A stretch of DNA of 64,000 nucleotides, from contig CABYCY010000002.1 of assembly GCA_902517615.1 (NCBI GenBank), positions 56,755 to 120,754 on the forward strand. Reading direction: 5' to 3'. Position 1 is the first letter of the stretch. Every line of letters starts with the position of its first letter. A program made the position numbers and the translations under genes. Shown here one piece after another: positions 35,969-49,023 of this stretch. The notes under the pieces are model-generated. The model was not told the origin of the DNA and did no database searches. It saw only the letters and a list, made by a program, of their open reading frames with translations. This DNA is from an uncultured Pelagibacteraceae bacterium (GTDB taxonomy: Bacteria > Pseudomonadota > Alphaproteobacteria > Pelagibacterales > Pelagibacteraceae).

Positions 35969-37552
35969 TTACCAAACCCCAATCATTATACCATCATCTT
36001 TAGTATAATCTCTTTCTTTAGTTACAAACTCATCAGTTGCTGCAACTCTATTTTTTCTATCTATTATTCTTTTAAGAAGTAATTCTTTCATTTCATCTCT
36101 AATTTTTGAATGTTTTTCAGATTTTCCCAAATCATTAAACTCATCAGGATCATTTTTTAAATCAAAAAGCTGAGGCTCAAATCCTTTATAATAAATATAT
36201 TTCCAATCATGATTTCTAATCATAAAAGCTCTTGCATCAGATGCTCCTAAGTTAAGTATTTTTCGAGCTTCATTAAATGAATAATCAATTTCACTAAAAA
36301 CAAAATCTTTCCAGTCTTTAGGATTTTCACCTTTTATTACTGGCATTAAAGAGTTTCCTTCTAATCTGTGTTTGCTAACTTTGCTTTCTACCGCATCTAA
36401 AAAAGTTGGAAGCAAATCAATCGCTTCAATAAATCTTTTTTCTTTGGTCCCTCTAGTTTTATCCGCATGTTCGCTTGGATCATAAATTATCATTGGTACT
36501 CTTACAGATTGCTCGTGAAATAATTCTTTCTCACCCAACCAATGATCTCCTTGGTAATCACCATGATCTGAAGCAAATACAATCATAGTGTCTTCCATGT
36601 GACCAGCATCTTTTAAAAACTTAAATAATCTTCCCAAATTATCATCAATTTGTTTAATTAAACCCATGTAACCAGATAAAACTGTGTTTCTAACTTCATC
36701 TTTTGAAAAAGTTTTGGAAATACTGTTTTCCATAAATGCTTTGTAAACTGGATGATCATTATTTTTCTCTGCATCATTTCTGTGCACAGGATAAAATTCA
36801 TTTTGAGAATACATATTATGATAAGGAGCTGGTGCCATATAAGGCCAATGCGGTTTAATATAGGATAAATGTAAAAACCAAGGTTTATCTTTACTCTCTT
36901 CTATAAATTCCATTGCACGATTAGTCATGAAAGCTGTTTCAGAATGTTTCTCTGGAATTCTTGCAGCTTTATTAGAATTTCTTAATCTCCAACCGCTTAA
37001 AATTTCTCCATTTTTACCTTCAGCAGAATTAGCCCAATCATTCCATGGATTGGGTCCATCGTATCCAAGTTTATTTAACCATTCGTTATAAGATAAAGTT
37101 TTTTTGGAATTTTTAATTTGATTATTTGGATGTAGTCCATCATCTCTTTCATAGGGATCAAAACCTGGTTCACTAATAACTAATCCTATTTCAGTATCTT
37201 TAGTAATACCAAGTCTACTCATACCATCTAAATCTGCTCTCATATGTGTTTTTCCAACTACACCTGTTCTTATTCCAGATTGACGTAAATAATCTCCAAT
37301 AGTTAATTCTCCAATTGGAAGTGGAACCTGGTTCCAAGTAGAACCATGACTAAAAACTGTTCTACCAGTGTAATAAGATGCTCTGGAAGGGCCACATACA
37401 GGTGATTGAACAAAAGCAGAAACGAACTGTACTCCTTTTTTTGCTAAACTATCAATGTTAGGAGTTTTTAAATGGGGATGTCCATAACAGGAAAGATAAT
37501 CCCATCTTAATTGATCAGCCATTATAAAAAGAATATTTTTAATTTTTTTCAT
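35969..37552 (-). CDS. Type I sulfatase (alkaline phosphatase superfamily)
   Basis: NILFIMADQLRWDYLSCYGHPHLKTPNIDSLA; active-site CGPSRAS (C-x-P-S-R formylglycine motif); SDHGD. Confidence 0.92.
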   Translation of the reverse strand: MKKIKNILFIMADQLRWDYLSCYGHPHLKTPNIDSLAKKGVQFVSAFVQSPVCGPSRASYYTGRTVFSHGSTWNQVPLPIGELTIGDYLRQSGIRTGVVGKTHMRADLDGMSRLGITKDTEIGLVISEPGFDPYERDDGLHPNNQIKNSKKTLSYNEWLNKLGYDGPNPWNDWANSAEGKNGEILSGWRLRNSNKAARIPEKHSETAFMTNRAMEFIEESKDKPWFLHLSYIKPHWPYMAPAPYHNMYSQNEFYPVHRNDAEKNNDHPVYKAFMENSISKTFSKDEVRNTVLSGYMGLIKQIDDNLGRLFKFLKDAGHMEDTMIVFASDHGDYQGDHWLGEKELFHEQSVRVPMIIYDPSEHADKTRGTKEKRFIEAIDLLPTFLDAVESKVSKHRLEGNSLMPVIKGENPKDWKDFVFSEIDYSFNEARKILNLGASDARAFMIRNHDWKYIYYKGFEPQLFDLKNDPDEFNDLGKSEKHSKIRDEMKELLLKRIIDRKNRVAATDEFVTKERDYTKDDGIMIGVW

Positions 37553-38500
37553 TTAGTTAAATAAAGTATCAACCTCAATTTTCTGACTCTCTAAGTCTTC
37601 ACAACTATAACCTAATTGTTCTAATTTTAACTTTGAGCATTTTTTTTTAGCATACCTAATTTCATCATAATAATTTATTTGTGTATGTGGATGAACACCG
37701 TCTTCTGCCATTCTATAAATTCCAAATTGCATTGTTGAATTGTTACTCCAGCCTTTTCCTTTATTGGGTGGCTTAACAGGTCCTTGATAGTGGTAAACTA
37801 GTTTTCCATTAATCCACATTTTAAGATATCCACTATCTTTAGTCGTATAATTTACATTCATTACAACATCATTCCATTTATCAAATATTTCATTTCTATC
37901 CATAATTTTGACATTTGCATTCTCTTTCCAGTTAACTGAGCAACCATCATTACCTTTAGCATTCATTTTTTTATAAATTTCTGGGGCATTACAAGCTGTA
38001 CGTCTTTGCCAATAAAGACCATCAAATGTTAAATCTGTATTAAACATTGGGGCCCAATCACCGTCATTGTGAATTTGCCAAATAGAATTGTGTCCTGCCA
38101 ATGGAGTATTAAATTTTTCTACATACCACGAAATTGTATGCCAAACATTTCCATTAAAAGTGATGTCTTTATCATTATTATTTGGTAACAACTCGTATCT
38201 CTCAGATCCAAATGGACCATTTTTACAATCATCTGATCCAGATGTTTTGCCACAACTACCACTTCTTAATTCAAATCTTAAGGCAGTCTTTCCATACCTT
38301 GCATTGTCAGTAATTTCTTGAATTGCGTAAGGCTTCCAATGTTCCATTATGTAACTGAACTTCCATTTATGTGGCCATTTATAAAAAACATCTCCTTTTG
38401 TTTTTATTACTCTATTTTTTTTAATTGTTAATGTGTTTGATTCTGCTGGAATGCTCCAAAATAAGGATAAACTAAAAAATATTAATAAAATTTTTTTCAT
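37553..38500 (-). CDS. Secreted polysaccharide lyase (heparin lyase I-like jelly roll)
   Basis: Signal peptide; HTISWYVEKFNTPLAGHNSIWQIHNDGDWAPMF; GYLKMWINGKLVYHYQGP; YYDEIRYAKK. Confidence 0.72.
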   Translation of the reverse strand: MKKILLIFFSLSLFWSIPAESNTLTIKKNRVIKTKGDVFYKWPHKWKFSYIMEHWKPYAIQEITDNARYGKTALRFELRSGSCGKTSGSDDCKNGPFGSERYELLPNNNDKDITFNGNVWHTISWYVEKFNTPLAGHNSIWQIHNDGDWAPMFNTDLTFDGLYWQRRTACNAPEIYKKMNAKGNDGCSVNWKENANVKIMDRNEIFDKWNDVVMNVNYTTKDSGYLKMWINGKLVYHYQGPVKPPNKGKGWSNNSTMQFGIYRMAEDGVHPHTQINYYDEIRYAKKKCSKLKLEQLGYSCEDLESQKIEVDTLFN

Positions 38501-39688
38501 TTAGAATAGTGTAATCTTTTTTTGATAATGCACATAACAACCATTATTCTCTAAATCAGAAAAATCAGAGAAGTTTTCAACACATTTAGATAATCCATCT
38601 TTTGCAGCCCCATCTTTACTATATCCCTGATGCTTTAATAAATATTTTTCGTCTTTTTTATTTTTAATGATAGCAAGAAATTCGGGTTTCGTTCCTTGAA
38701 AATCTATTCTTTTTGCTTCTGTTTTTGATGTTAGTCTTTTTATTTTCTTAGCACCTTCTGGAATATAGTGTCTGTCTTTTGCTTTATATTTATATTTAGT
38801 TCTAGATACCCTTTCTTTTGGTTTATAATCACATTTTTTTTTATCCATAACCTTCTCACAATTTTTACTGATAACATATTCTTTTATTGATAGCGTAGAA
38901 GGCTCAATCAATTTAGGATCTCTTTCAGCCTCTTCAGTGCTCCAATATCTATATAAGCCAATTTTAAAAGCTATACCGCCTGTTAAATCTAAAGTTAAAT
39001 TAGGCCCATAAACTTCTAAAGTCCTTTCCCCATTCACCCACATAATAAATTCTCCATCTTCTTCTTTTGAAGGTTTTATTTTGAAAAGTAGGGTCTGATA
39101 TTCTTTTTTAAATGGAGTTAAACTGCCCATGTCAAATTTATACATTGATTTTTTAAATCTATTTGCCGTTGGATCTTTATCTGTCCAGAATACTTCTTCT
39201 ATTTGTTGAAAATAAAATTGTACTCTATTTGGTAGATCATCTTTGTTGGTGGTATACATTATCTGCATTGCTGGATAAATAATGTTCCCATCATTTTCTG
39301 TTCCAACTATTTGCCAAATATTAGCATCGTGGTTAAGACCAGGATTTACTTTAAATTTATATTTTAAGTAAACTTCTTTACCTAACTTGTAAAAATTTTT
39401 CTTTTTAGTGACAAATTCCCATCTTTGAGCTTGTTCATCAGAAAGATCCCAATCTTCTGGATGTCCTTTCATTGAATAATCTAGAGTGATTTCTATAGCT
39501 TTCTCATCTTCGTTATAACGAAGTATATCTTTATGCTTAGTAAGAGAGTCGTAAGCAAGGGACATCTTTTTTTTTGCATCACCACCTAATATTTCTTTTT
39601 TAAAAATCTTTAGTGGATTCTTTGACGCTGCATATAATTGAGTGGTAAAAATAATTGATATAGCAACAACAGTAATAATTTTTTTCAT
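38501..39688 (-). CDS. Secreted heparin-lyase-like jelly-roll protein (divergent paralogue)
   Basis: Signal peptide; YLKYKFKVNPGLNHDANIWQIVGTENDGN; EFIMWVNGERTLEVYGPN; FKIGLYRYWS. Confidence 0.6.
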   Translation of the reverse strand: MKKIITVVAISIIFTTQLYAASKNPLKIFKKEILGGDAKKKMSLAYDSLTKHKDILRYNEDEKAIEITLDYSMKGHPEDWDLSDEQAQRWEFVTKKKNFYKLGKEVYLKYKFKVNPGLNHDANIWQIVGTENDGNIIYPAMQIMYTTNKDDLPNRVQFYFQQIEEVFWTDKDPTANRFKKSMYKFDMGSLTPFKKEYQTLLFKIKPSKEEDGEFIMWVNGERTLEVYGPNLTLDLTGGIAFKIGLYRYWSTEEAERDPKLIEPSTLSIKEYVISKNCEKVMDKKKCDYKPKERVSRTKYKYKAKDRHYIPEGAKKIKRLTSKTEAKRIDFQGTKPEFLAIIKNKKDEKYLLKHQGYSKDGAAKDGLSKCVENFSDFSDLENNGCYVHYQKKITLF

Positions 39689-39792: not shown

Positions 39793-40803
39793 TTAAAAAT
39801 CTAAAGTTTTTTTAGACCCATCACTATATGTAAATTCTACTTGTTTTTTTGAAATGCTTTTTATTGAGGTAAATCCATCGTATTCTGCAATAAATTCATT
39901 TAATTTTTTTCTACCCTTCTTACTCATTTTTTTTCCTGGAGCATTCACACCAACATCAATGATTAACTCTGCTCCATTTAAAAATGCTTTTACCCAAGCT
40001 TTTACTGGTGCACCACAAGTCATAGCCTCTGTTAACCAAATAGGTTTATTTACATCTACACTTTTTAATAAAGCTGCAAATTCATCTACCCATAGTTCTT
40101 TATCACACTGTCCATCAGGACCACTTATATGGTGAATGTTTGCAATATCGAAATGATCTTTAATTTTTGGCAAAGCAGATTTCCAATATTTAATATTTTC
40201 TGGGAACATTCCTGCAGCACCAGCCATAACAATGACTGCATCTGGCTGTTTTTCCTTAATCACTTTAGAAGAAAAATTAAAAATTTCTACAAAGTCTTCC
40301 TCGCTTCCTTTAAAGAACATTTTAAACTCTGGCTCATTCATAATATCCCAATATATAATTGGCTTAGTTAGGCCAGGCATATCATTTGAACCATCTCCGT
40401 CATAACGATCAACTAATTTTAAAAGAAAAGTTTTGTAGTCATCCATTGAGCAAGGTTTACTTAGATATTTGGTAAATTTTTTTCCAAAAGGACTTCTTGC
40501 TTTTTTTCTTTTACAGGATTTTTGCTCCCAATTGGCGTGAGGCCAGATAGTTGCTAAAATTGTTTGATTATGTTCTTGTGCATAAACAACATATTTATCT
40601 GCCTCTTCCCAAGTAAAATTTCCTTTTTCTTTTTCAATGTGGTTCCAAATAAAAGGTCCTGGATGAGGTCTAACCCATTGATTATCTTTACCTCGCATTT
40701 TTTTATCGCGCATTTCAGTTAGCTCTCCAAATCTTGAGTTTGCAAAAGATGAGTTTGAAATCAGATTAAAAAAAACAATGAATAAAATAAATCTAATAAA
40801 CAT
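39793..40803 (-). CDS. Secreted glycoside hydrolase (clan GH-A-like TIM barrel)
   Basis: Signal peptide; WDIMNEPE (acid/base) and KPIWLTEAMTCG (nucleophile) motifs. Confidence 0.72.
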   Translation of the reverse strand: MFIRFILFIVFFNLISNSSFANSRFGELTEMRDKKMRGKDNQWVRPHPGPFIWNHIEKEKGNFTWEEADKYVVYAQEHNQTILATIWPHANWEQKSCKRKKARSPFGKKFTKYLSKPCSMDDYKTFLLKLVDRYDGDGSNDMPGLTKPIIYWDIMNEPEFKMFFKGSEEDFVEIFNFSSKVIKEKQPDAVIVMAGAAGMFPENIKYWKSALPKIKDHFDIANIHHISGPDGQCDKELWVDEFAALLKSVDVNKPIWLTEAMTCGAPVKAWVKAFLNGAELIIDVGVNAPGKKMSKKGRKKLNEFIAEYDGFTSIKSISKKQVEFTYSDGSKKTLDF

Positions 40804-40808
40804 TTTAT

Positions 40809-43268
40809 TTATTTAGGATCTTTTGGACCTGGATCTGGGTTACCTGTACCAGGGGTACCGGCACCTGGAGTACCTGGACCTGGATCACCTGGCGCACCTG
40901 GATTGCCCATTGCTCCTTCAACAGCTCCACCAATATCACCCATGGCACCGCCCATGCCGCCCATGGCACCGCCCATATCTCCCATTGCACCGCCCATGGC
41001 TCCACCTTCAGCTCCTCCCATGGCTCCACCCATGTCGCCCATCGAACCCATATCACCTGGACCAGCTGGACCTCCAGCCATAGCCCCAGCCATAGCTCCG
41101 CCCATTGTTCCTGACATTCCATCTTGCATCGCGCCGCCCATGGCTTTACCCATTTCGCCTTCGCCCATGCCTTCCATTCCCATTGCAGCTCCCATTGCAT
41201 GAGAACCCATAGCTGACGCTGCTGCTCCCTGAGCAGCCATAGCTGATCCCATTGCAGCACCTGCTAATCCTCCTGCTCCATCAGCTGCCATCGCTGCACC
41301 TGCTACGTTTCCAATTGCTGCTCCTGGGTCAACTCCTGTTCCCATTGCAGCAGAGACTTGTCCTAAATTCATTCCACCTTTCATACCACCATCTAACCCT
41401 TCAGGTGTTCCACCCATTATGTCTCCTAATTTGGCACCCTCAGGACTTCCTGTTAAACCCATGCTTGCTGCCATTTCTGGATTCATTTGTGCATCTAAAT
41501 TCATTTCTCCCATTCCAACCATTCCACCGCTCATTGCTGCAAGGCCCATATCTCCACCTTCCATCCCCATGGCTCCACTTAATCCTTTCATACCTTCGGC
41601 TCCCATTGCAGCCATCGTTCCTTGGTTGACTAATCCAACTTCCATCATATCTCCCATTTGACCAGCAGATAAATTTCCAGACTTAGCCATATTCGCGACC
41701 CCTTGAACTGCTTTACTACCGAGCCCAGCAACGTTAGTTGACATAATTGTTGATACATCCATTCCTGCCATTCCAGCTGCACCCATACTTGCTACCATTC
41801 CAGGAGTTAAACCTGTTTGCATTGCCATATCAGCCATTCCTAATTTATCCATTTCTCCAACGTCCATTCCAGTCATGTTTGCCATTGCTTCGCCCATATC
41901 TGCTTTAGACATGTTTTCCATAACTCCACCCATCATACCGCCTGTTGGATTATTTGGATCTAAAGCTTCCCCCATACCTAATGCTGTCATTCCTTCGGGA
42001 GGTGCCATTGCACCTGGTAAACCTCCAGCTAAAGATGGTTTGGCCATAATCATTGCACCCATCATCATTCCTGATTCACTTATATTTTCTGGCATCTCCA
42101 AAGCTTCAGGCGCAGACATATTATTTGCAAAAGAGTCTTTCATCTCCATTCCTTTTTGAATAGCATTCTGTTCTTTTGGTGCTTTTCCTGAAATTGCTTG
42201 GCTTATCATTCCAACGGTACCTGACATTGCAGAAGTAATTCCAACTTCTGGATTTGCAAATGCTGTTTGCAATGTTTGAGCCATTTGATCCATTCCCATC
42301 TCTTGCATTGCTTTTCCAATTTCCTGCATTCCCTCAATACCACCCATACCTTTTGCCATATCCGTCATGCCTTCCATTCCAATACTTGTCTCCATGCTCT
42401 TCATCATCTCTTCACCCATACCTTTGGCACTCATCGTAGCTACTATTGCGCCAGTCATTGATTGACTCATTTGGCCCATGGCGTCAGGATTAGCTGCTAA
42501 TGTTTCTAGTGCAGCAGTTGCAGCACCAACTGGTAGTGCATTTAATGCTCCTGCCATCATTGCTGGATTCATTCCCATTTCCGCAACATTCATTGAAGCA
42601 AAATTTCCAGGATTAAAATTTGTCATATCAAAATTAGCTGAACCAGTTATAGCTTCCATATCTACTAAACCTGAATTTGATAATCCTTCCATAGCAGCTC
42701 CCATTCCAATACCTTGAGCATCCAGAGATCCCATCATCCCTTTTGCATCAAATCCAACAGCACCTAAAGCATTCATTTGTCCAGCCATTTTTTGTAATGA
42801 TACAACTTTTCCAGCACCCATTTGGCCCGCTATACTTGACAAAGCAGCCATCTCTTCTGGTGAAAAATCATTTGCAAAATCAATCCCTGTCATATCCAAA
42901 GCTGTAGGATCTGGAATAGCCCCTAAAGCCATATCAGTAACACCCTCAACTAATGACATTGCCTGAACTGCAGAAGTAATATCCCCTTTTGCTAAACTTT
43001 CAGTAGCAAATTGCATTGCAGTTTCAGCCTGAGCTATAGATACATCCAAAGCCTTCCCTATATCACTTTTTGCCTCTCCTAAAGCTTCTGTTGCTCCAGA
43101 AATATTTTCAGCAACTTTGCTTGCATCTGCTGCTAATTGATCTGCTGCAGCTTGAGCTGAATTTCCTGCTGCTTCTGAAATTCCAGACATTGAAGCTATA
43201 TCATTTGCTTTAACAGTAAAGTTTAAAAATAATAAAAATATTAAAAAAGTTTTAATTATAATTTTCAA
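40809..43268 (-). CDS. Secreted Met/Gly/Ala-rich low-complexity repeat protein, 819 aa, with collagen-like Pro/Gly tail
   Basis: Signal peptide MKIIIKTFLIFLLFLNFTVKANDIAS; repeated GGAMGGAMGDMGG/MGMEGM units; C-terminal GAPGDPGPGTPGAGTPGTGNPDPGP; single long ORF in an operon-like context. Confidence 0.78.
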   Translation of the reverse strand: MKIIIKTFLIFLLFLNFTVKANDIASMSGISEAAGNSAQAAADQLAADASKVAENISGATEALGEAKSDIGKALDVSIAQAETAMQFATESLAKGDITSAVQAMSLVEGVTDMALGAIPDPTALDMTGIDFANDFSPEEMAALSSIAGQMGAGKVVSLQKMAGQMNALGAVGFDAKGMMGSLDAQGIGMGAAMEGLSNSGLVDMEAITGSANFDMTNFNPGNFASMNVAEMGMNPAMMAGALNALPVGAATAALETLAANPDAMGQMSQSMTGAIVATMSAKGMGEEMMKSMETSIGMEGMTDMAKGMGGIEGMQEIGKAMQEMGMDQMAQTLQTAFANPEVGITSAMSGTVGMISQAISGKAPKEQNAIQKGMEMKDSFANNMSAPEALEMPENISESGMMMGAMIMAKPSLAGGLPGAMAPPEGMTALGMGEALDPNNPTGGMMGGVMENMSKADMGEAMANMTGMDVGEMDKLGMADMAMQTGLTPGMVASMGAAGMAGMDVSTIMSTNVAGLGSKAVQGVANMAKSGNLSAGQMGDMMEVGLVNQGTMAAMGAEGMKGLSGAMGMEGGDMGLAAMSGGMVGMGEMNLDAQMNPEMAASMGLTGSPEGAKLGDIMGGTPEGLDGGMKGGMNLGQVSAAMGTGVDPGAAIGNVAGAAMAADGAGGLAGAAMGSAMAAQGAAASAMGSHAMGAAMGMEGMGEGEMGKAMGGAMQDGMSGTMGGAMAGAMAGGPAGPGDMGSMGDMGGAMGGAEGGAMGGAMGDMGGAMGGMGGAMGDIGGAVEGAMGNPGAPGDPGPGTPGAGTPGTGNPDPGPKDPK

Positions 43269-43273
43269 AGTTA

Positions 43274-43804
43274 TTAATTTCCTTCCTCAATTGTTTCTTG
43301 AGCTTTAATAGTAGCAGCTCTTTGAGCATTTACTTTAGCTGTTGCGATTTGTTTTTTTAGATTAGCTAAGACTGCTGCTCTTTCAGATACTTCTGGTGTC
43401 AATTGTTTTGCTTTCTTTTTCTTTTTCTTTTTATTTTTTTTATATGCTGCATAAAGCATTTTACCTGTTGCCCAAAATTTAAGAATAGCCTCTGATGATT
43501 TAGCTTTTGGAGAAATATTTAAACTCATCCTCATAGCTTCTCTGCCTTTTTTAAGACCCTCTAATGTTTCAACGCTTGCACTTTTATCATTTAGCATCTC
43601 ATTGTATAAAGCTTCAAAGTAAGCCATATCTCGAATCATATGATGCTGATATTTATTTAACTCTCCTTTTCCTTTAACAAATCTTTGGTAAACTTTTTTA
43701 CCTGCCTCACCTTGCTTTTGTTTGCTCTTAATTAAGCTTTCGTGAAACATTCCCTCAGGGTAATCAATTTCTTCATAAATAAATGCTGCTGGCCTTTCGC
43801 TCAT
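43274..43804 (-). CDS. Hypothetical basic protein; coding probably extends upstream to a signal peptide
   Basis: 176-aa ORF (ATG at 43804), Lys-rich; 6-bp gap to next gene; open frame continues upstream to 43963. Confidence 0.65.
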   Translation of the reverse strand: MSERPAAFIYEEIDYPEGMFHESLIKSKQKQGEAGKKVYQRFVKGKGELNKYQHHMIRDMAYFEALYNEMLNDKSASVETLEGLKKGREAMRMSLNISPKAKSSEAILKFWATGKMLYAAYKKNKKKKKKKAKQLTPEVSERAAVLANLKKQIATAKVNAQRAATIKAQETIEEGN

Positions 43805-44108
43805 CGGCCAATCCTTTAGTTTCTCGTACTTTTCACAGTAGATGCAATCTTTTTCTTCTTTTTTTTTTGCTGCTTCTAGATTTTGGGTAGTGAAGATTAT
43901 TATTATGAAAATAATAAATAATCTAATTATGTTTAAGGCAGATTTTTTGCTAAACTCGCCTGGCTAAACCTTTCATGTTTAAACCCTACATCTTATTTTA
44001 ATTAATAAAAAGCATTTATATATGAGCAAATAAGTAATTTTAAATTTTGTTTTCAATTAAAGCGAGTGTTCTTTAACTTCTGAAATTTAAAGCTTAAGAA
44101 TAACTTTA

Positions 44109-44237
44109 TTAAAAAATAAAATGATAAATTAATAAACCTAAGATTAAACCTTTAATAAATGAAATCCACATAATTGAATAATCTGATAGATTAAGTTTTT
44201 TTTTCCACCAATTTATGTATCTCTTATGAATATCCAT
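44109..44237 (-). CDS. Small (42 aa) single-TM membrane protein, translationally coupled to DUF1501 gene
   Basis: MDIHKRYINWWKKKLNLSDYSIMWISFIKGLILGLLIYHFIF*; start ATG overlaps DUF1501 stop (TGATG). Confidence 0.5.
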   Translation of the reverse strand: MDIHKRYINWWKKKLNLSDYSIMWISFIKGLILGLLIYHFIF

Positions 44238-45394
44238 CAAACTGTTTTAAATAATTTATCAGATAAATTTTGTAAATCCTCACCCCAAAAAACATCTTTT
44301 TGAATACGCTTGAAATCTAAATCAAAAACTGTTGACATGGCCGATGCATAAATTGATCTTGCATCTATAGTTGAGTTTAAATCTCTTCCCTCAAATAATT
44401 CTTTTTTCTTCAATCCTGGCCAATCAGAATGAATTTGAGCTTTTTTAACCAAACCACCACTCATTAACACTGCAGTACCATATCCATGTTCAGTGCCATT
44501 ACTACTATTTTGTTTAATGGTTCTTCCAAATTCGGTTAAAGTTAATACCAAAGTATTTTTAAACTCATCACCCATTGAAGCTTGGAGACCTTTTAGAATT
44601 CTATCATACTCTTTTAAACAATCAGCGTGAGCTCCATCTGTTGAACCTTGAGCTGCATGAGTATCAAAACCACCTACTTCAAAAACTGCTACTCTAGGCC
44701 CATCAATTTTTGCTAATTGTTTACCTGCCTGAAGTGATAAAGCGGAGTTCTCTGTATAACCATGACCTCCATCTTTTCTTTTTCGTATAACTTTAAGTGT
44801 TTCACTTAAGTCTTTTTCTGAATAATTATCAAATTCATTATGTATCATCTCTAAAATATCATTCGCAGGTATTGCTTTTCCAACAGGAAAATAATTATCA
44901 TTCATTGGAACACCCCTAATTAATAATGGCATTGGTAATGATAAAGCTAAACCATTGCCAGTTAAACCTGCTAACTTCATACCTCTTCCAAGCCATCCTG
45001 TTTTAACTGAATATGGAATTTTTCCTCCAGACTGCATTAGATTTTGTCCATCAAAATGAGATCTACCTGTATATGGAATGCTTGTTGCATGAACAGCAGA
45101 TGCCAAATTGTTATCCCACAAACTTTTAAAAGTTTGTAAAGCAGGATGTAAGTCAAAATCTGAAGTTAAAGAAAATGTTTTATCAAGATTAATTTTGCTT
45201 CTTAATTTTTTAAACTTTTTATCTCCTTTTATCGGTATTGCACAAAGTCCATCCATTCCTCCTTCAAGCATTATAATTACTAGATTTTTTTTAGGACCAC
45301 TATTTGCAAAAGAAGGTAAACCAAAACCAGCAAAATAAAGTGAAGTTATTGCTGTTGATTTAAGAAAATCTCTTCTATTAATTTTTAATTTCAT
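44237..45394 (-). CDS. DUF1501 domain protein with Tat signal
   Basis: MKLKINRRDFLKSTAITSLYFAGFGLPSFA twin-arginine signal; VIIMLEGGMDGL; SHFDGQNLMQSG; TLTEFGRTIKQNSSNGTEHGYG. Confidence 0.92.
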   Translation of the reverse strand: MKLKINRRDFLKSTAITSLYFAGFGLPSFANSGPKKNLVIIMLEGGMDGLCAIPIKGDKKFKKLRSKINLDKTFSLTSDFDLHPALQTFKSLWDNNLASAVHATSIPYTGRSHFDGQNLMQSGGKIPYSVKTGWLGRGMKLAGLTGNGLALSLPMPLLIRGVPMNDNYFPVGKAIPANDILEMIHNEFDNYSEKDLSETLKVIRKRKDGGHGYTENSALSLQAGKQLAKIDGPRVAVFEVGGFDTHAAQGSTDGAHADCLKEYDRILKGLQASMGDEFKNTLVLTLTEFGRTIKQNSSNGTEHGYGTAVLMSGGLVKKAQIHSDWPGLKKKELFEGRDLNSTIDARSIYASAMSTVFDLDFKRIQKDVFWGEDLQNLSDKLFKTV

Positions 45395-46824
45395 GCTTTT
45401 AGAAACTCTGGATGGTTAAAGAGCAACACTTGTTTATCGCTTGGATTGTTTTTTTTATTTAAGTATTTCATTATTTTTTCTGGATTATCAAAGTTTTTTT
45501 GCACAATCTTATTATAAAAATCATTATTATTATTTTCAGGTTTGTTAAAAAGATAACTTTCTTTAGCATAAACCAATCTTCTAATTAAAAGCTCAGGTGA
45601 CAACCAATCATTTGAAATATCTGACCAGCCATTTGGTTGCTTTGCTTTATATGGGTGATGTCCAATTCTTTTTAATAACCACTCTGGATATCTTTGACTT
45701 CTAGTAGGTTTATTTCCTAATTCATATAAATCCATTAATGTTGGACTTGGTGGCCATTGTAAATCTGAAATTTTAGCAACTTGGACAAACCAATTTTCTG
45801 GGTTCTGAAATTTTTTATATTTATCATTATTATCAAAAGCTACTTTTATAGCAGCTTTATGGATCTCGGTTAAATGACCGTCTGATTTTTTAAAAGCATC
45901 TATAATTGGTTGTTTCATCTCTTTTGTTGGTTCATCTGTTATTAAATACCTACATAGTCTTTCAGCAACAAAATCTCTACAATTTGGGTGATTTACTAAA
46001 TCTTTAATTACAGCTGCTAATGCTTTTTTTCCTTTTTTATATTCTTTTCCTAAAACTTTTTTCTTACCAGGCTGATGATATTCTGAATTAAACCAAATAT
46101 CTCCAGTCTCTAAATGCTTTTTACTCCATCGTCTTTGCCAGCCAGTCATTATATATGCTAATTGAATTATATCCTCTTGAGTATATCCAGCTTCAGGAGA
46201 TACTGTGTGAAGCTCTAAAAGTTCCCTGGCATGATTTTCATTAATTGTTGCAGGTTCTTTTTTTTTTTTTATCCAGTCTTGAAAAGCAGTAACACTTTTA
46301 GGACCAGCACTTTCACTGTTATCTAAATGATGAATCATTGCCCATGAAGTTGTGACTTCATAAACCATTTTTTCAAAAGTTTGATTTAAATTTGGTCTAA
46401 TTATCTCTCTTTGATAAGGGCCTGTTGAATATTGTGGCAAAAAATCTTTATCACTTATAGTAAAAAAATTTCCCCAGAACATCCAAAGCTTTGCTAAAAC
46501 TGGGCTTTGACTATTAATTGCCTCATTATGTCTCACTGTTATCTCAAGAGATTCCCAAAATTTTTGTCCTGTTTTGTGTCTAAGAAGATCTCTGTGAGTT
46601 TTGTAGAGTGTCTTATTATCTTTATATTTTTTTCTTATTACTTTTCTGTCATTATAAACCCACTCCCTATACAAAAGCCTTAACTCTTTTTCAGAATTTA
46701 ATCTACCTGTCCAAGATAATTTTGGAACATCACTCACTTGGTTAAGTGCCCAACTTAATGGATCAGATGGTACTTCTTCATTTAGGCCAATTCCGAAAGC
46801 AACTTTTCTAAAAAAACTTTTCAT
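45391..46824 (-). CDS. DUF1800 domain protein
   Basis: NENHARELLELHTVSPEAGYTQEDIIQLAYIMTGW; LVNHPNCRDFVAERLCRYLI. Confidence 0.92.
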   Translation of the reverse strand: MKSFFRKVAFGIGLNEEVPSDPLSWALNQVSDVPKLSWTGRLNSEKELRLLYREWVYNDRKVIRKKYKDNKTLYKTHRDLLRHKTGQKFWESLEITVRHNEAINSQSPVLAKLWMFWGNFFTISDKDFLPQYSTGPYQREIIRPNLNQTFEKMVYEVTTSWAMIHHLDNSESAGPKSVTAFQDWIKKKKEPATINENHARELLELHTVSPEAGYTQEDIIQLAYIMTGWQRRWSKKHLETGDIWFNSEYHQPGKKKVLGKEYKKGKKALAAVIKDLVNHPNCRDFVAERLCRYLITDEPTKEMKQPIIDAFKKSDGHLTEIHKAAIKVAFDNNDKYKKFQNPENWFVQVAKISDLQWPPSPTLMDLYELGNKPTRSQRYPEWLLKRIGHHPYKAKQPNGWSDISNDWLSPELLIRRLVYAKESYLFNKPENNNNDFYNKIVQKNFDNPEKIMKYLNKKNNPSDKQVLLFNHPEFLKA

Positions 46825-46827
46825 TAT

Positions 46828-47697
46828 TTATTTTACTTTATCAATATCGTGAATATTTGTTAAAGAATTATTAAATTCTTCCATGTTTTCTCTCAAAGAT
46901 AAACTGGAAATTGAATAAATCATGATCAGTAATAATACTAAGGGCAAAGAAGTAATTACAGAAGCAAAACTTTTAATAAGTAATATATAAAAAACAATAA
47001 AAAGAGCTGAACGAATTAAAACTGTTTTTCTGAATACACTAACAATTGATAGAGAGTGCTTTAATAATTTAAAAAAACTCATTTGAGATGGTCCAAAATA
47101 TCTTTTGGCTCGTACTGATGGTGTAGAAATTAAATCTTTTTCAATTTTTTTTAAAGATCCAGAAAAACTGTTCCACGTGGCTTTTTCATTTATCATTTTT
47201 TTAACAGTTGCTTTTGAAAGACAAGTAAAATTTCCAAATTTAATTAATTGACCTGTAAAAGCTAAAGTTAAAAACTTATGAAATTCATAACAGAATCTAA
47301 AAATTATATCCTCAGATCTTTTTACTCGTTCCCCTACAATTGATCTATCTCCAGATTGTTTAGAAATTTCAATAAAATTTTTAATTTCCTCTGGTCTATC
47401 TTCACCATCTCCATCCATAGGAATTACGTAATCAAATTCTTTTTTTTCATAAATGTATTTTAAACCAGACGCAATACACCTTGCATGACCTCTGTTTTCC
47501 CTCATATTTATGATTTCAATTGAATTAATGTTTTCAATATCTGTATATTCATCAATGATTTGATGTGTAGAAGCATCATTAATAATAACTAATGATAATT
47601 CAGAATTTAATTCTTTTATCTCTTGATTAATATTTTTAATTAATAATTTCAATGACTCTCGGTCATTATAAATCGGTACTAAAATTATATATTTCAT
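46828..47697 (-). CDS. Glycosyltransferase family 2 (dolichol-phosphate mannosyltransferase-like)
   Basis: ILVPIYNDRESLKLLIKNI...VIINDAST...VIPMDGDGEDRPEEI; C-terminal TM segments. Confidence 0.9.
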   Translation of the reverse strand: MKYIILVPIYNDRESLKLLIKNINQEIKELNSELSLVIINDASTHQIIDEYTDIENINSIEIINMRENRGHARCIASGLKYIYEKKEFDYVIPMDGDGEDRPEEIKNFIEISKQSGDRSIVGERVKRSEDIIFRFCYEFHKFLTLAFTGQLIKFGNFTCLSKATVKKMINEKATWNSFSGSLKKIEKDLISTPSVRAKRYFGPSQMSFFKLLKHSLSIVSVFRKTVLIRSALFIVFYILLIKSFASVITSLPLVLLLIMIYSISSLSLRENMEEFNNSLTNIHDIDKVK

Positions 47698-47700
47698 TAA

Positions 47701-49023
47701 TTATCTTGATCCAACACAAATATTATCAAGACACATATAATCTTTCAATTCATCAAGTTGGTCTCTTTGCACTATTCCTTCCCATACAGGTCTAGATTTT
47801 AAATGATAAGATAAATTTCCAGCATGCCATTCATCTCCAAAAACAACATTAATTGTTGAGTTAAATTGTTGGTTCCAAGCATATTGAGTTTTTACTGCAA
47901 TTTCTTCACCTGGGTAATCAGTTCTTTTGTTATCTTTTGATACAGAAACATATGCATAGAGAGCTGGTGATAAAAAGAAAAAGAAAATAAATCCAATCAT
48001 GAATGGTTTTAATTTTTTAAGATTAATTTGTGTTTGAAATAAATAAACAAATAATGTTCCAATAAATAAATAAAATGGTGTCATCCACATTGTTCTTATG
48101 TTTGATCCGGTAATTAACGATGTTAAAAAAATTAAAATAATTGGAAAAATATTTATCGCTATCAAAAAAAGTAGTTTTTTATCTTTAAAGTTTAATTTAA
48201 ACTTAAATTTTTTAACTAATAACCAAATTAAAATTAAAAAAGGAATTATTATCCCAATTTGTTTTAATAAAAATATTATGGGAAATTTTATATGATCAAT
48301 TAAACTTGATTGCTCCAAGCCTGTTCTTGCAAGACCATAGGTAATTGTAATAAAATCATTATTATTTAGCCAAATTAAATGAGGAATTAAAGCAACTATA
48401 AAAACTTCAACAGTTATTAAGTATTTAAAATCAAATTTTCTCTCTTTTTTTAAAAATATTAAATAAATAAATAAAAGATCAATAGAAACTAACAAATATA
48501 TAAATAAGTATTTTGATAAAAAACCAAAAGCTGCAAAAAGACCCACTAAAAAACAATCTAAAAACTTTATTTCTTTTCCACTATATATTTTCCAAGAATA
48601 ATAAACTGTAAGTGACCAGAAAGGTAATTGGCAAACATTTACATTAAATTCTGGTGTTGTGAAATTATAAAAATAAACTGATTCTATTAAAAGCACAGAG
48701 ATTAAACCAAGTAGATCATTATTAAAGATTTCTTTAGAAAATCTGAATACATAATAAAATGATATAATTACAAAAATTTGACTAAGTAAGTAATAAGACC
48801 AATCTCGCGCACCAAAAATTTGATAAATTACTTCTGAAAAAAAAGCACTCATTGGAGGATGTTTGTTAAACCCCCAATCTAAATTACTTCCCCAGGCTAA
48901 AGCCTCTATAGTGTCTAATGGTAAATTGTGATTTGTAATATAAGGAACTAAAGTCCAAAATATAAGATGAGATATAATAACAATATAAAATATATTATTT
49001 ATTTTTTTGTTATTATTGCTCAT
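47701..49023 (-). CDS. Glycosyltransferase family 39 / ArnT-like membrane protein
   Basis: NHNLPLDTIEALAWGSNLDWGFNKHPPMSAFFSEVIYQIFG; polytopic. Confidence 0.85.
   Translation of the reverse strand: MSNNNKKINNIFYIVIISHLIFWTLVPYITNHNLPLDTIEALAWGSNLDWGFNKHPPMSAFFSEVIYQIFGARDWSYYLLSQIFVIISFYYVFRFSKEIFNNDLLGLISVLLIESVYFYNFTTPEFNVNVCQLPFWSLTVYYSWKIYSGKEIKFLDCFLVGLFAAFGFLSKYLFIYLLVSIDLLFIYLIFLKKERKFDFKYLITVEVFIVALIPHLIWLNNNDFITITYGLARTGLEQSSLIDHIKFPIIFLLKQIGIIIPFLILIWLLVKKFKFKLNFKDKKLLFLIAINIFPIILIFLTSLITGSNIRTMWMTPFYLFIGTLFVYLFQTQINLKKLKPFMIGFIFFFFLSPALYAYVSVSKDNKRTDYPGEEIAVKTQYAWNQQFNSTINVVFGDEWHAGNLSYHLKSRPVWEGIVQRDQLDELKDYMCLDNICVGSR

Follow-up and report, generated by a model that had tools for sequence, protein, structure and literature searches.

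A methionine-rich, apparently exported protein of SAR11 bacteria and its partner, whose translation in one clade probably involves a +1 frameshift

SAR11 bacteria are among the most abundant bacterial groups, and they have minimal genomes and need reduced sulfur. The locus described here raises the question of what such a bacterium might gain from an apparently exported protein that carries 115 methionines. A preliminary description of the window, i.e., the whole stretch of 64,000 nucleotides that was analyzed, had placed a Met/Gly/Ala-rich open reading frame of 819 residues with a signal peptide at 40809-43268. We found it to be present exactly so, the signal peptide being read by eye, and the Ala-rich, helical-looking N-terminal part and the M-G-A-E/D low-complexity region that had been mentioned could both be located in the sequence. 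The features of the gene are as follows.

40809-43268, minus strand: Met/Gly/Ala-rich, apparently exported protein of 819 residues; TTG start; intact open reading frame, with 44 uninterrupted homologue frames and a dN/dS of about 0.14.
43206-43268, minus strand: apparent signal peptide, residues 1-21; read from the sequence by eye, with a similar hydrophobic N-terminus in all homologues that have a complete 5' end.
42708-43145, minus strand: N-domain, residues about 42-187, common to giant coiled-coil secreted proteins; matched by an HMM built from the coiled-coil relatives alone, with E about 1e-10 to 1e-16.
41289-42908, minus strand: putative helical Met-rich core, residues 121-660, overlapping the end of the N-domain; Met columns 92-93% conserved and aliphatic in Met-poor homologues; helices throughout in the AlphaFold2 model, with confidence only over residues 130-260 of a Met-poor homologue.
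40812-41288, minus strand: M-G-A-D/E low-complexity stretch and Pro-Gly tail, residues 661-819; assigned by composition, which the homologues keep while varying in length.

The apparent signal peptide reads LKIIIKTFLIFLLFLNFTVKA, followed by ND. The Ala-rich N-terminal part extends to about residue 190 and is followed by the M-G-A core; pure M-G-A-D/E low complexity is found at about residues 661-783, and the Pro-Gly tail occupies about residues 784-819. This tail of about 36 residues had been called collagen/elastin-like, and it is indeed rich in Pro and Gly, but it lacks the regular Gly-X-Y triplets of collagen. The composition of the protein, which the preliminary description had proposed to compute, was 19.2% Gly, 17.0% Ala, 14.0% Met, 4.2% Pro, and 3.5% Lys, with a single His and no Arg, Cys, Trp, or Tyr. 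The second-highest Met content among the window ORFs of at least 100 residues was 5.8%. The GC content of the frame (0.58/0.51/0.27 at the three codon positions) fits a real gene, given that the genome has 31% GC. An origin of the window in SAR11 is confirmed by the SAR11_0636 sRNA (Rfam), which it carries together with a glycine riboswitch, and by the homologues described below, whose records are titled Pelagibacteraceae.

Close homologues of the protein were present in eight of 101 sampled genomes (a sample that includes the source genome), with identities of 35-94% outside its own genome. A second scan, covering 85,462 species genomes by a procedure whose pattern step may miss distant homologues, gave 44 homologous loci, all titled Pelagibacteraceae, and all 44 frames were uninterrupted as far as the contigs extend. 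The median pairwise dN/dS was 0.143 for the whole protein and 0.10, 0.16, and 0.20 for the N-terminal part, the core, and the tail, respectively; these are Nei-Gojobori estimates on our own alignment, in which the low-complexity tail aligns poorly, so the tail value is rough. In relation to the near relative L028, dN was 0.028 and dS 0.39. Decaying or chance low-complexity DNA, of which missing homologues, a dN/dS near 1, and frameshifted alleles had been named as signs, was thus ruled out by 44 intact homologues and a dN/dS of about 0.14, and no broken allele was seen. The ORF is a real gene under purifying selection.

Only a minority of genomes, those of some open-ocean SAR11 bacteria, carry the protein, which is therefore not needed for SAR11 life in general. 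Sequence searches of Pfam, NCBIfam, and PDB with the protein, its partner (see below), and their relatives gave nothing meaningful; the family is undescribed in these libraries, and none of the known homologues has a proven function. The papers searched contained no description of the protein, the only match for methionine-rich and SAR11 being an activity-measurement (BONCAT) study. A phage origin was rejected, as viral contigs contained no relative.

The homologue search also showed that the methionines are conserved by position. Over residues 23-725, Met of the window protein is kept in 93% of the other Met-rich sequences; the corresponding values for Leu, Ile, Val, Gly, and Phe are 82%, 76%, 77%, 91%, and 98%. 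Where Met is substituted among the Met-rich homologues, it is mostly Ile or Leu that takes its place. Four homologues (L064, L065, L066, and L069) have the same architecture with 3% Met, and at the 118 Met-majority columns these Met-poor proteins display Ile (117), Leu (113), Met (60), or Val (54), i.e., one of the four in 344 of the 410 ungapped cells (84%), and not His or Cys. Taken together, Met, Leu, Ile, Val, and Phe make up 0.285 of the window protein vs. 0.31 in the Met-poor group, whereas the share of Met in this hydrophobic total is 0.49 vs. 0.09. The Met-rich group has twice as much Ala plus Gly as the Met-poor group, and less Ser, Asn, Thr, and Gln.

The Met-rich group constitutes one side of a single branch with a support of 100/100. 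The tree is unrooted, and its model is strained by the contrasting amino acid composition of the two groups; the direction of the change is therefore read from the distant relatives, whose Met content is about 2%. Since Met occupies fixed sites that are aliphatic in the Met-poor homologues, we conclude that it appears to have taken over from Leu, Ile, and Val in a putative helical core, on one branch. The two groups of homologues thus make a natural pair for examining the role of core Met in a secreted protein.

The protein had also been called a repeat protein. Tandem Repeats Finder reported only short weak arrays, so the gene is not a simple tandem repeat, and a strict period was looked for in the protein and not found. 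A degenerate 14-residue helix-plus-turn unit with 18 instances scored 266, as compared with a mean of 155 and a maximum of 229 for refitted shuffles, but since its seeds were picked by hand the unit is only suggestive. AlphaFold2, a proposed check, predicted helices and yielded no fold: the mean pLDDT was 38 for the Met-rich protein (eight-sequence alignment) and 53 for a Met-poor homologue (44 sequences), the latter model consisting almost wholly of short helices, with residues 130-260 at 70-84. When the models were compared by Foldseek with PDB and viral models, there was no match (best E 0.05, TM-scores around 0.1). Because of these results we claim no fold, and predict with moderate confidence that the family is helical in secondary structure.

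A second gene accompanies that of the Met-rich protein, and a third is found in part of the loci. The preliminary description had mentioned neither this obligatory partner gene nor the fusions and the start-codon anomaly that are described below. Their features, together with the region where translation of the second gene may begin, are the following.

43274-43963, minus strand: partner frame, from the proposed shift site to the stop (apparent signal peptide, CxYC, and FWATG region); located directly upstream in each of the 38 loci that can be tested; the ORF from the first ATG spans 43274-43804.
43956-43976, minus strand: ATGAAAGGTTTAGCCAGGCGA, with a candidate start at 43974-43976 and a candidate +1 shift site, GCC_AGG_C, at 43958-43964; TTAGCCAGG is invariant in 18 of 18 loci.
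39793-40803, minus strand: GH10-like secreted protein, third gene of the cluster; Pfam GH10 score of 19.9 bits, below the cut-off of 22.1; synteny in 26 of 44 loci.

The partner gene lies directly upstream, on the same strand, in every one of the 38 loci with a long enough contig. Its product, of about 200-240 residues, combines an apparent signal peptide with CxYC and FWATG motifs and a stretch rich in Lys, and the family has no counterpart in Pfam, NCBIfam, or PDB. A profile search of 298 genomes found the partner in 24 Pelagibacteraceae and gave two weak partial matches in another family of the order. In locus L055, the partner is split over two frames, by sequencing error, frameshift, or decay. 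No riboswitch was matched upstream of the partner gene by Rfam even at a permissive threshold.

The weakly GH10-like gene, downstream in 26 of the 44 loci, is absent from the Met-poor loci and, among the Met-rich ones, from several deeper loci, and is thus not obligatory. The neighbors in the clade of the window are polysaccharide-lyase-like genes, a sulfatase, DUF1501/DUF1800 genes, and glycosyltransferases, and in other clades transport genes. In the window, the regions 35969-39688 and 44237-49023 on either side of the pair encode variable polysaccharide-lyase-like proteins that are secreted, together with a sulfatase, glycosyltransferases, and a DUF1501/DUF1800 pair; the transport genes of the other clades are unrelated to these. 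As the neighborhood differs between genomes, it gives little functional help. The arrangement suggests that the partner gene and the Met-rich gene move as a unit.

The start of the partner gene is peculiar in one clade. In sister clades the gene starts at an ordinary ATG, whereas the partner frame in the window has no ATG, GTG, or TTG ahead of the signal peptide. The same was observed in the clade of 18 testable loci (the window, L026-L035, L037-L039, L041, L044, L061, and L067), where no ATG or GTG precedes the signal peptide and there is at most a TTG at its end. A broken partner gene in the window was suspected at first, but this was rejected because the layout is kept across 18 genomes.

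In all 18 loci, the partner frame opens straight after a TAG as CCA GG, within the invariant TTAGCCAGG (TTA_GCC_AGG). One frame back there is an ATG, which precedes the motif by 9 nt in 15 loci and by slightly more in L029, L032, and L044, and the zero frame from this ATG encodes M-K-G-L-A-R, with small variations, and meets a stop within a few codons. Over 714 codons, the partner frame, which is +1 to the ATG, is free of stops, where 67 would be expected and the other two frames have 85 and 52. The nonamer does not differ at all among the 18 loci, whereas the DNA that flanks it has mean ungapped identities of 43% and 54%, and 18 of the 20 distinct places where it occurs in the about 1.1 Mb examined (with redundancy) are partner starts. 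The codons GCC and AGG are both seldom used in the window (3.8 and 2.5 per thousand, respectively). The tRNA genes found in the source genome include UGC as the only Ala anticodon, UCU, UCG, and ACG but no CCU for Arg, and Gly-GCC; the absences are provisional, since the completeness of the assembly is 91% and tRNA-Asp, too, was missing from the genes found.

Judged from these sequence features, programmed +1 frameshifting at the partner start is likely in this one clade, and the shift may have a regulatory role. Initiation might instead take place at a non-standard codon inside the +1 frame, an alternative against which speaks that no common codon is seen there, or a short leader peptide with re-initiation might take the place of the +1 shift. 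In the yeast Ty3 (GCG_AGU_U) and Ty1 (CUU_AGG_C) +1 sites, a weakly read P-site codon is followed by a slow A-site codon, and in bacterial release factor 2 the functional part lies in the +1 frame behind a very short zero-frame piece (PMC5009743). The candidate partner site resembles these systems in its presumed weak P-site codon, slow A-site codon, and short zero-frame piece. It differs from them in that GCC_AGG_C/T is located at about codon 5 and the shift would build the signal peptide of an exported protein. If frameshifting is indeed programmed here, it would be an unusual bacterial +1 shift, used for making a signal peptide.

In its N-terminal part (about residues 42-187), the Met-rich protein shares homology with the beginning of secreted coiled-coil proteins that are much longer. 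The HMM made from these long relatives alone matched nearly all full-length Met-rich homologues, and reciprocal HMM evidence delimits an N-domain of about 150 residues behind an apparent signal peptide. The N-domain occurs in proteins of 319-1648 residues, several of which have long coiled coils, and the longest examples are the following.

L020, 5379-10325: giant secreted coiled-coil protein of 1648 residues, with the repeated C-terminal motif IVC.AS.CG..G.FG.
L022, 7231-10650: giant secreted coiled-coil protein of 1139 residues.
L109, 1860-6308: giant secreted coiled-coil protein of 1482 residues.

Each of these three genes adjoins a distant paralogue of the partner. In six genomes (L100 to L105), the partner domain and the N-domain are united in a single chain. 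The source genome has such a fusion of 578 residues on the same contig, outside the window (G000:C2:24864-26597; L100:5865-7601). The fused protein displays a conserved C-terminus, ALGQ or SLGQ, and has homologues in other SAR11 genomes. The profile of the fused protein matched 21 of 248 genomes in the order, and only the source genome among 288 of the class. Some N-domain relatives match SMC-type and SHOCT models; the SMC-type match is ordinary coiled-coil similarity, and the SHOCT match is a small N-terminal piece of one fused protein. The paired family of partner and N-domain, separate or fused, thus joins uncharacterized SAR11 proteins of very different length.

Gene fusion is a standard ground for inferring physical or functional association. 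We infer a role of the partner as a chaperone, an anchor, or an export helper from the obligatory linkage and the fusion, and class the Met-rich protein as an exported structural or repeat-type surface protein. Our favored explanation, to which we give about an even chance, is an exported, self-associating structural protein at or close to the surface of the SAR11 cell, together with a dedicated partner. As judged by their signal peptides, which were read by eye, both proteins would be exported by the Sec pathway. By binding the N-domain, the partner would serve the large protein as a chaperone, an anchor, or an assembly factor. The helical core, where Met stands for Leu, Ile, and Val, would be soft and would self-associate, and the Gly/Ala/Met stretch and the Pro-Gly tail would serve as a flexible, sticky extension. 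The product may be a fibre, a mesh, or a coat, in the periplasm or beyond the outer membrane. Among the four functions suggested by the preliminary description, a structural or adhesive matrix is the one best borne out, considering the apparent export, the conservation, the richness in Gly, Ala, and Pro, the lack of a match to an enzyme family, and the occurrence of the N-domain in giant coiled-coil proteins.

The proposed link between core Met and self-association draws on an analogy. In the spidroin N-terminal domain, substitution of core Met by Leu stabilizes the fold and impairs dimerization (PMC6763431). The present protein is similar in having Met in the hydrophobic core of a candidate helical domain, and silk also has Gly/Ala-rich repeats. 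The analogy is one of mechanism only, as no sequence relation was found or expected, spidroin is eukaryotic, and the present protein has far more Met. Of the elements of a spidroin-type Met-rich helical core, the exchange of aliphatic residues for Met is seen here, and the helical model is of low confidence. More tentatively, and with somewhat less than an even chance of being right, the locus may encode two proteins that form an export and assembly system specific to SAR11. In this system, the core of a self-assembling surface protein would have been converted from Leu, Ile, and Val to Met so as to soften it functionally, and partner export in one clade would need a +1 frameshift at GCC_AGG_C/T, read by tRNAs without a dedicated anticodon (Ala with UGC only; Arg without CCU). 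If this is true, surface assembly would be coupled to the translation state. A conserved, apparently exported protein with 115 Met, which a subset of strains keeps under purifying selection, would imply a real benefit of a sulfur-costly surface product.

The Met-rich region may alternatively be a flexible hydrophobic capture surface or a chaperone, in which Met binds varied greasy ligands or unfolded exported proteins. In the signal recognition particle, a Met-lined groove binds greasy ligands, and the Gly-Gly-Met tail of GroEL may do likewise. The present protein is similar to the GroEL C-terminal tail and the SRP54 Met-rich domain in its Gly-Gly-Met-like flexible tail and in the use of Met as a flexible hydrophobic side chain; GroEL and SRP54 are, however, cytoplasmic and unrelated in sequence, and their Met-rich segments are much shorter. 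The exchange of aliphatic residues for Met in the putative helical core, the Gly-Gly-Met/Ala tail, and the argument on Met flexibility cited in PMC6763431 speak for capture, but the positional conservation fits buried core packing as well as it fits a groove, there was no fold match to a known chaperone, and no structural evidence points to an open groove. We consider this explanation rather unlikely.

A sacrificial oxidant sink, in which surface or periplasmic Met would be oxidized and then re-reduced by MsrP/MsrQ, appears still less probable. There is precedent in the Met-rich peptides MrpX of Azospira and BcrX of Brucella, proposed to act as oxidant sinks together with YedYZ/MsrPQ (PMC8315932). 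The protein studied here is likewise bacterial, apparently exported, and very rich in Met, and the source genome contains an MsrP homologue above the curated cut-off. However, MsrP is absent in four of 11 carriers (G004, G225, G302, and G262, all incomplete assemblies) and present in seven of 19 genomes in which no partner gene was detected, and msrP of the source genome is located on another contig (C3), unlinked to the locus. Most of the assemblies compared are incomplete. MrpX and BcrX are short, have an MxKDx-type repeat, and belong to operons that place the reductase genes beside the peptide (PMC8315932), whereas the present protein has 819 residues, Met at fixed positions, and a different partner; no MxKDx-type repeat is visible in its sequence, and neither msrP nor msrQ was among the ten neighboring genes scanned. 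Furthermore, a sink would not need fixed Met positions, yet the Met columns are among the most conserved. The suggestion of an oxidant sink was thus not supported. An MsrA match in the source genome (G000:C11:40458-40892; L110) contains a TAG, and this match may run past the end of the gene.

A store of sulfur or amino acids, or a composition tuned to elements (low in N and C, high in S), we regard as very unlikely. The side chains of the Met-rich protein have 0.112 N and 2.0 C per residue, vs. 0.334 and 3.1 in the other window ORFs, and S is four times as high (0.140 vs. 0.035 per residue); element economy may contribute to the Gly/Ala bias. A store would, however, need neither a dedicated partner nor positional conservation, and here purifying selection keeps the Met sites in place. 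The Met-poor homologues moreover retain the architecture at 3% Met. The sulfur store put forward earlier is therefore disfavored.

Binding of copper or mercury by clusters of Met thioethers, also put forward earlier, is highly improbable despite the many MxM and MxxM spacings and the apparent export, since sister homologues hold Ile, Leu, or Val at the same sites, so that a thioether is not needed there in the family, and the protein has one His and no Cys; none of the ten neighboring genes scanned is a gene for metal transport or resistance.
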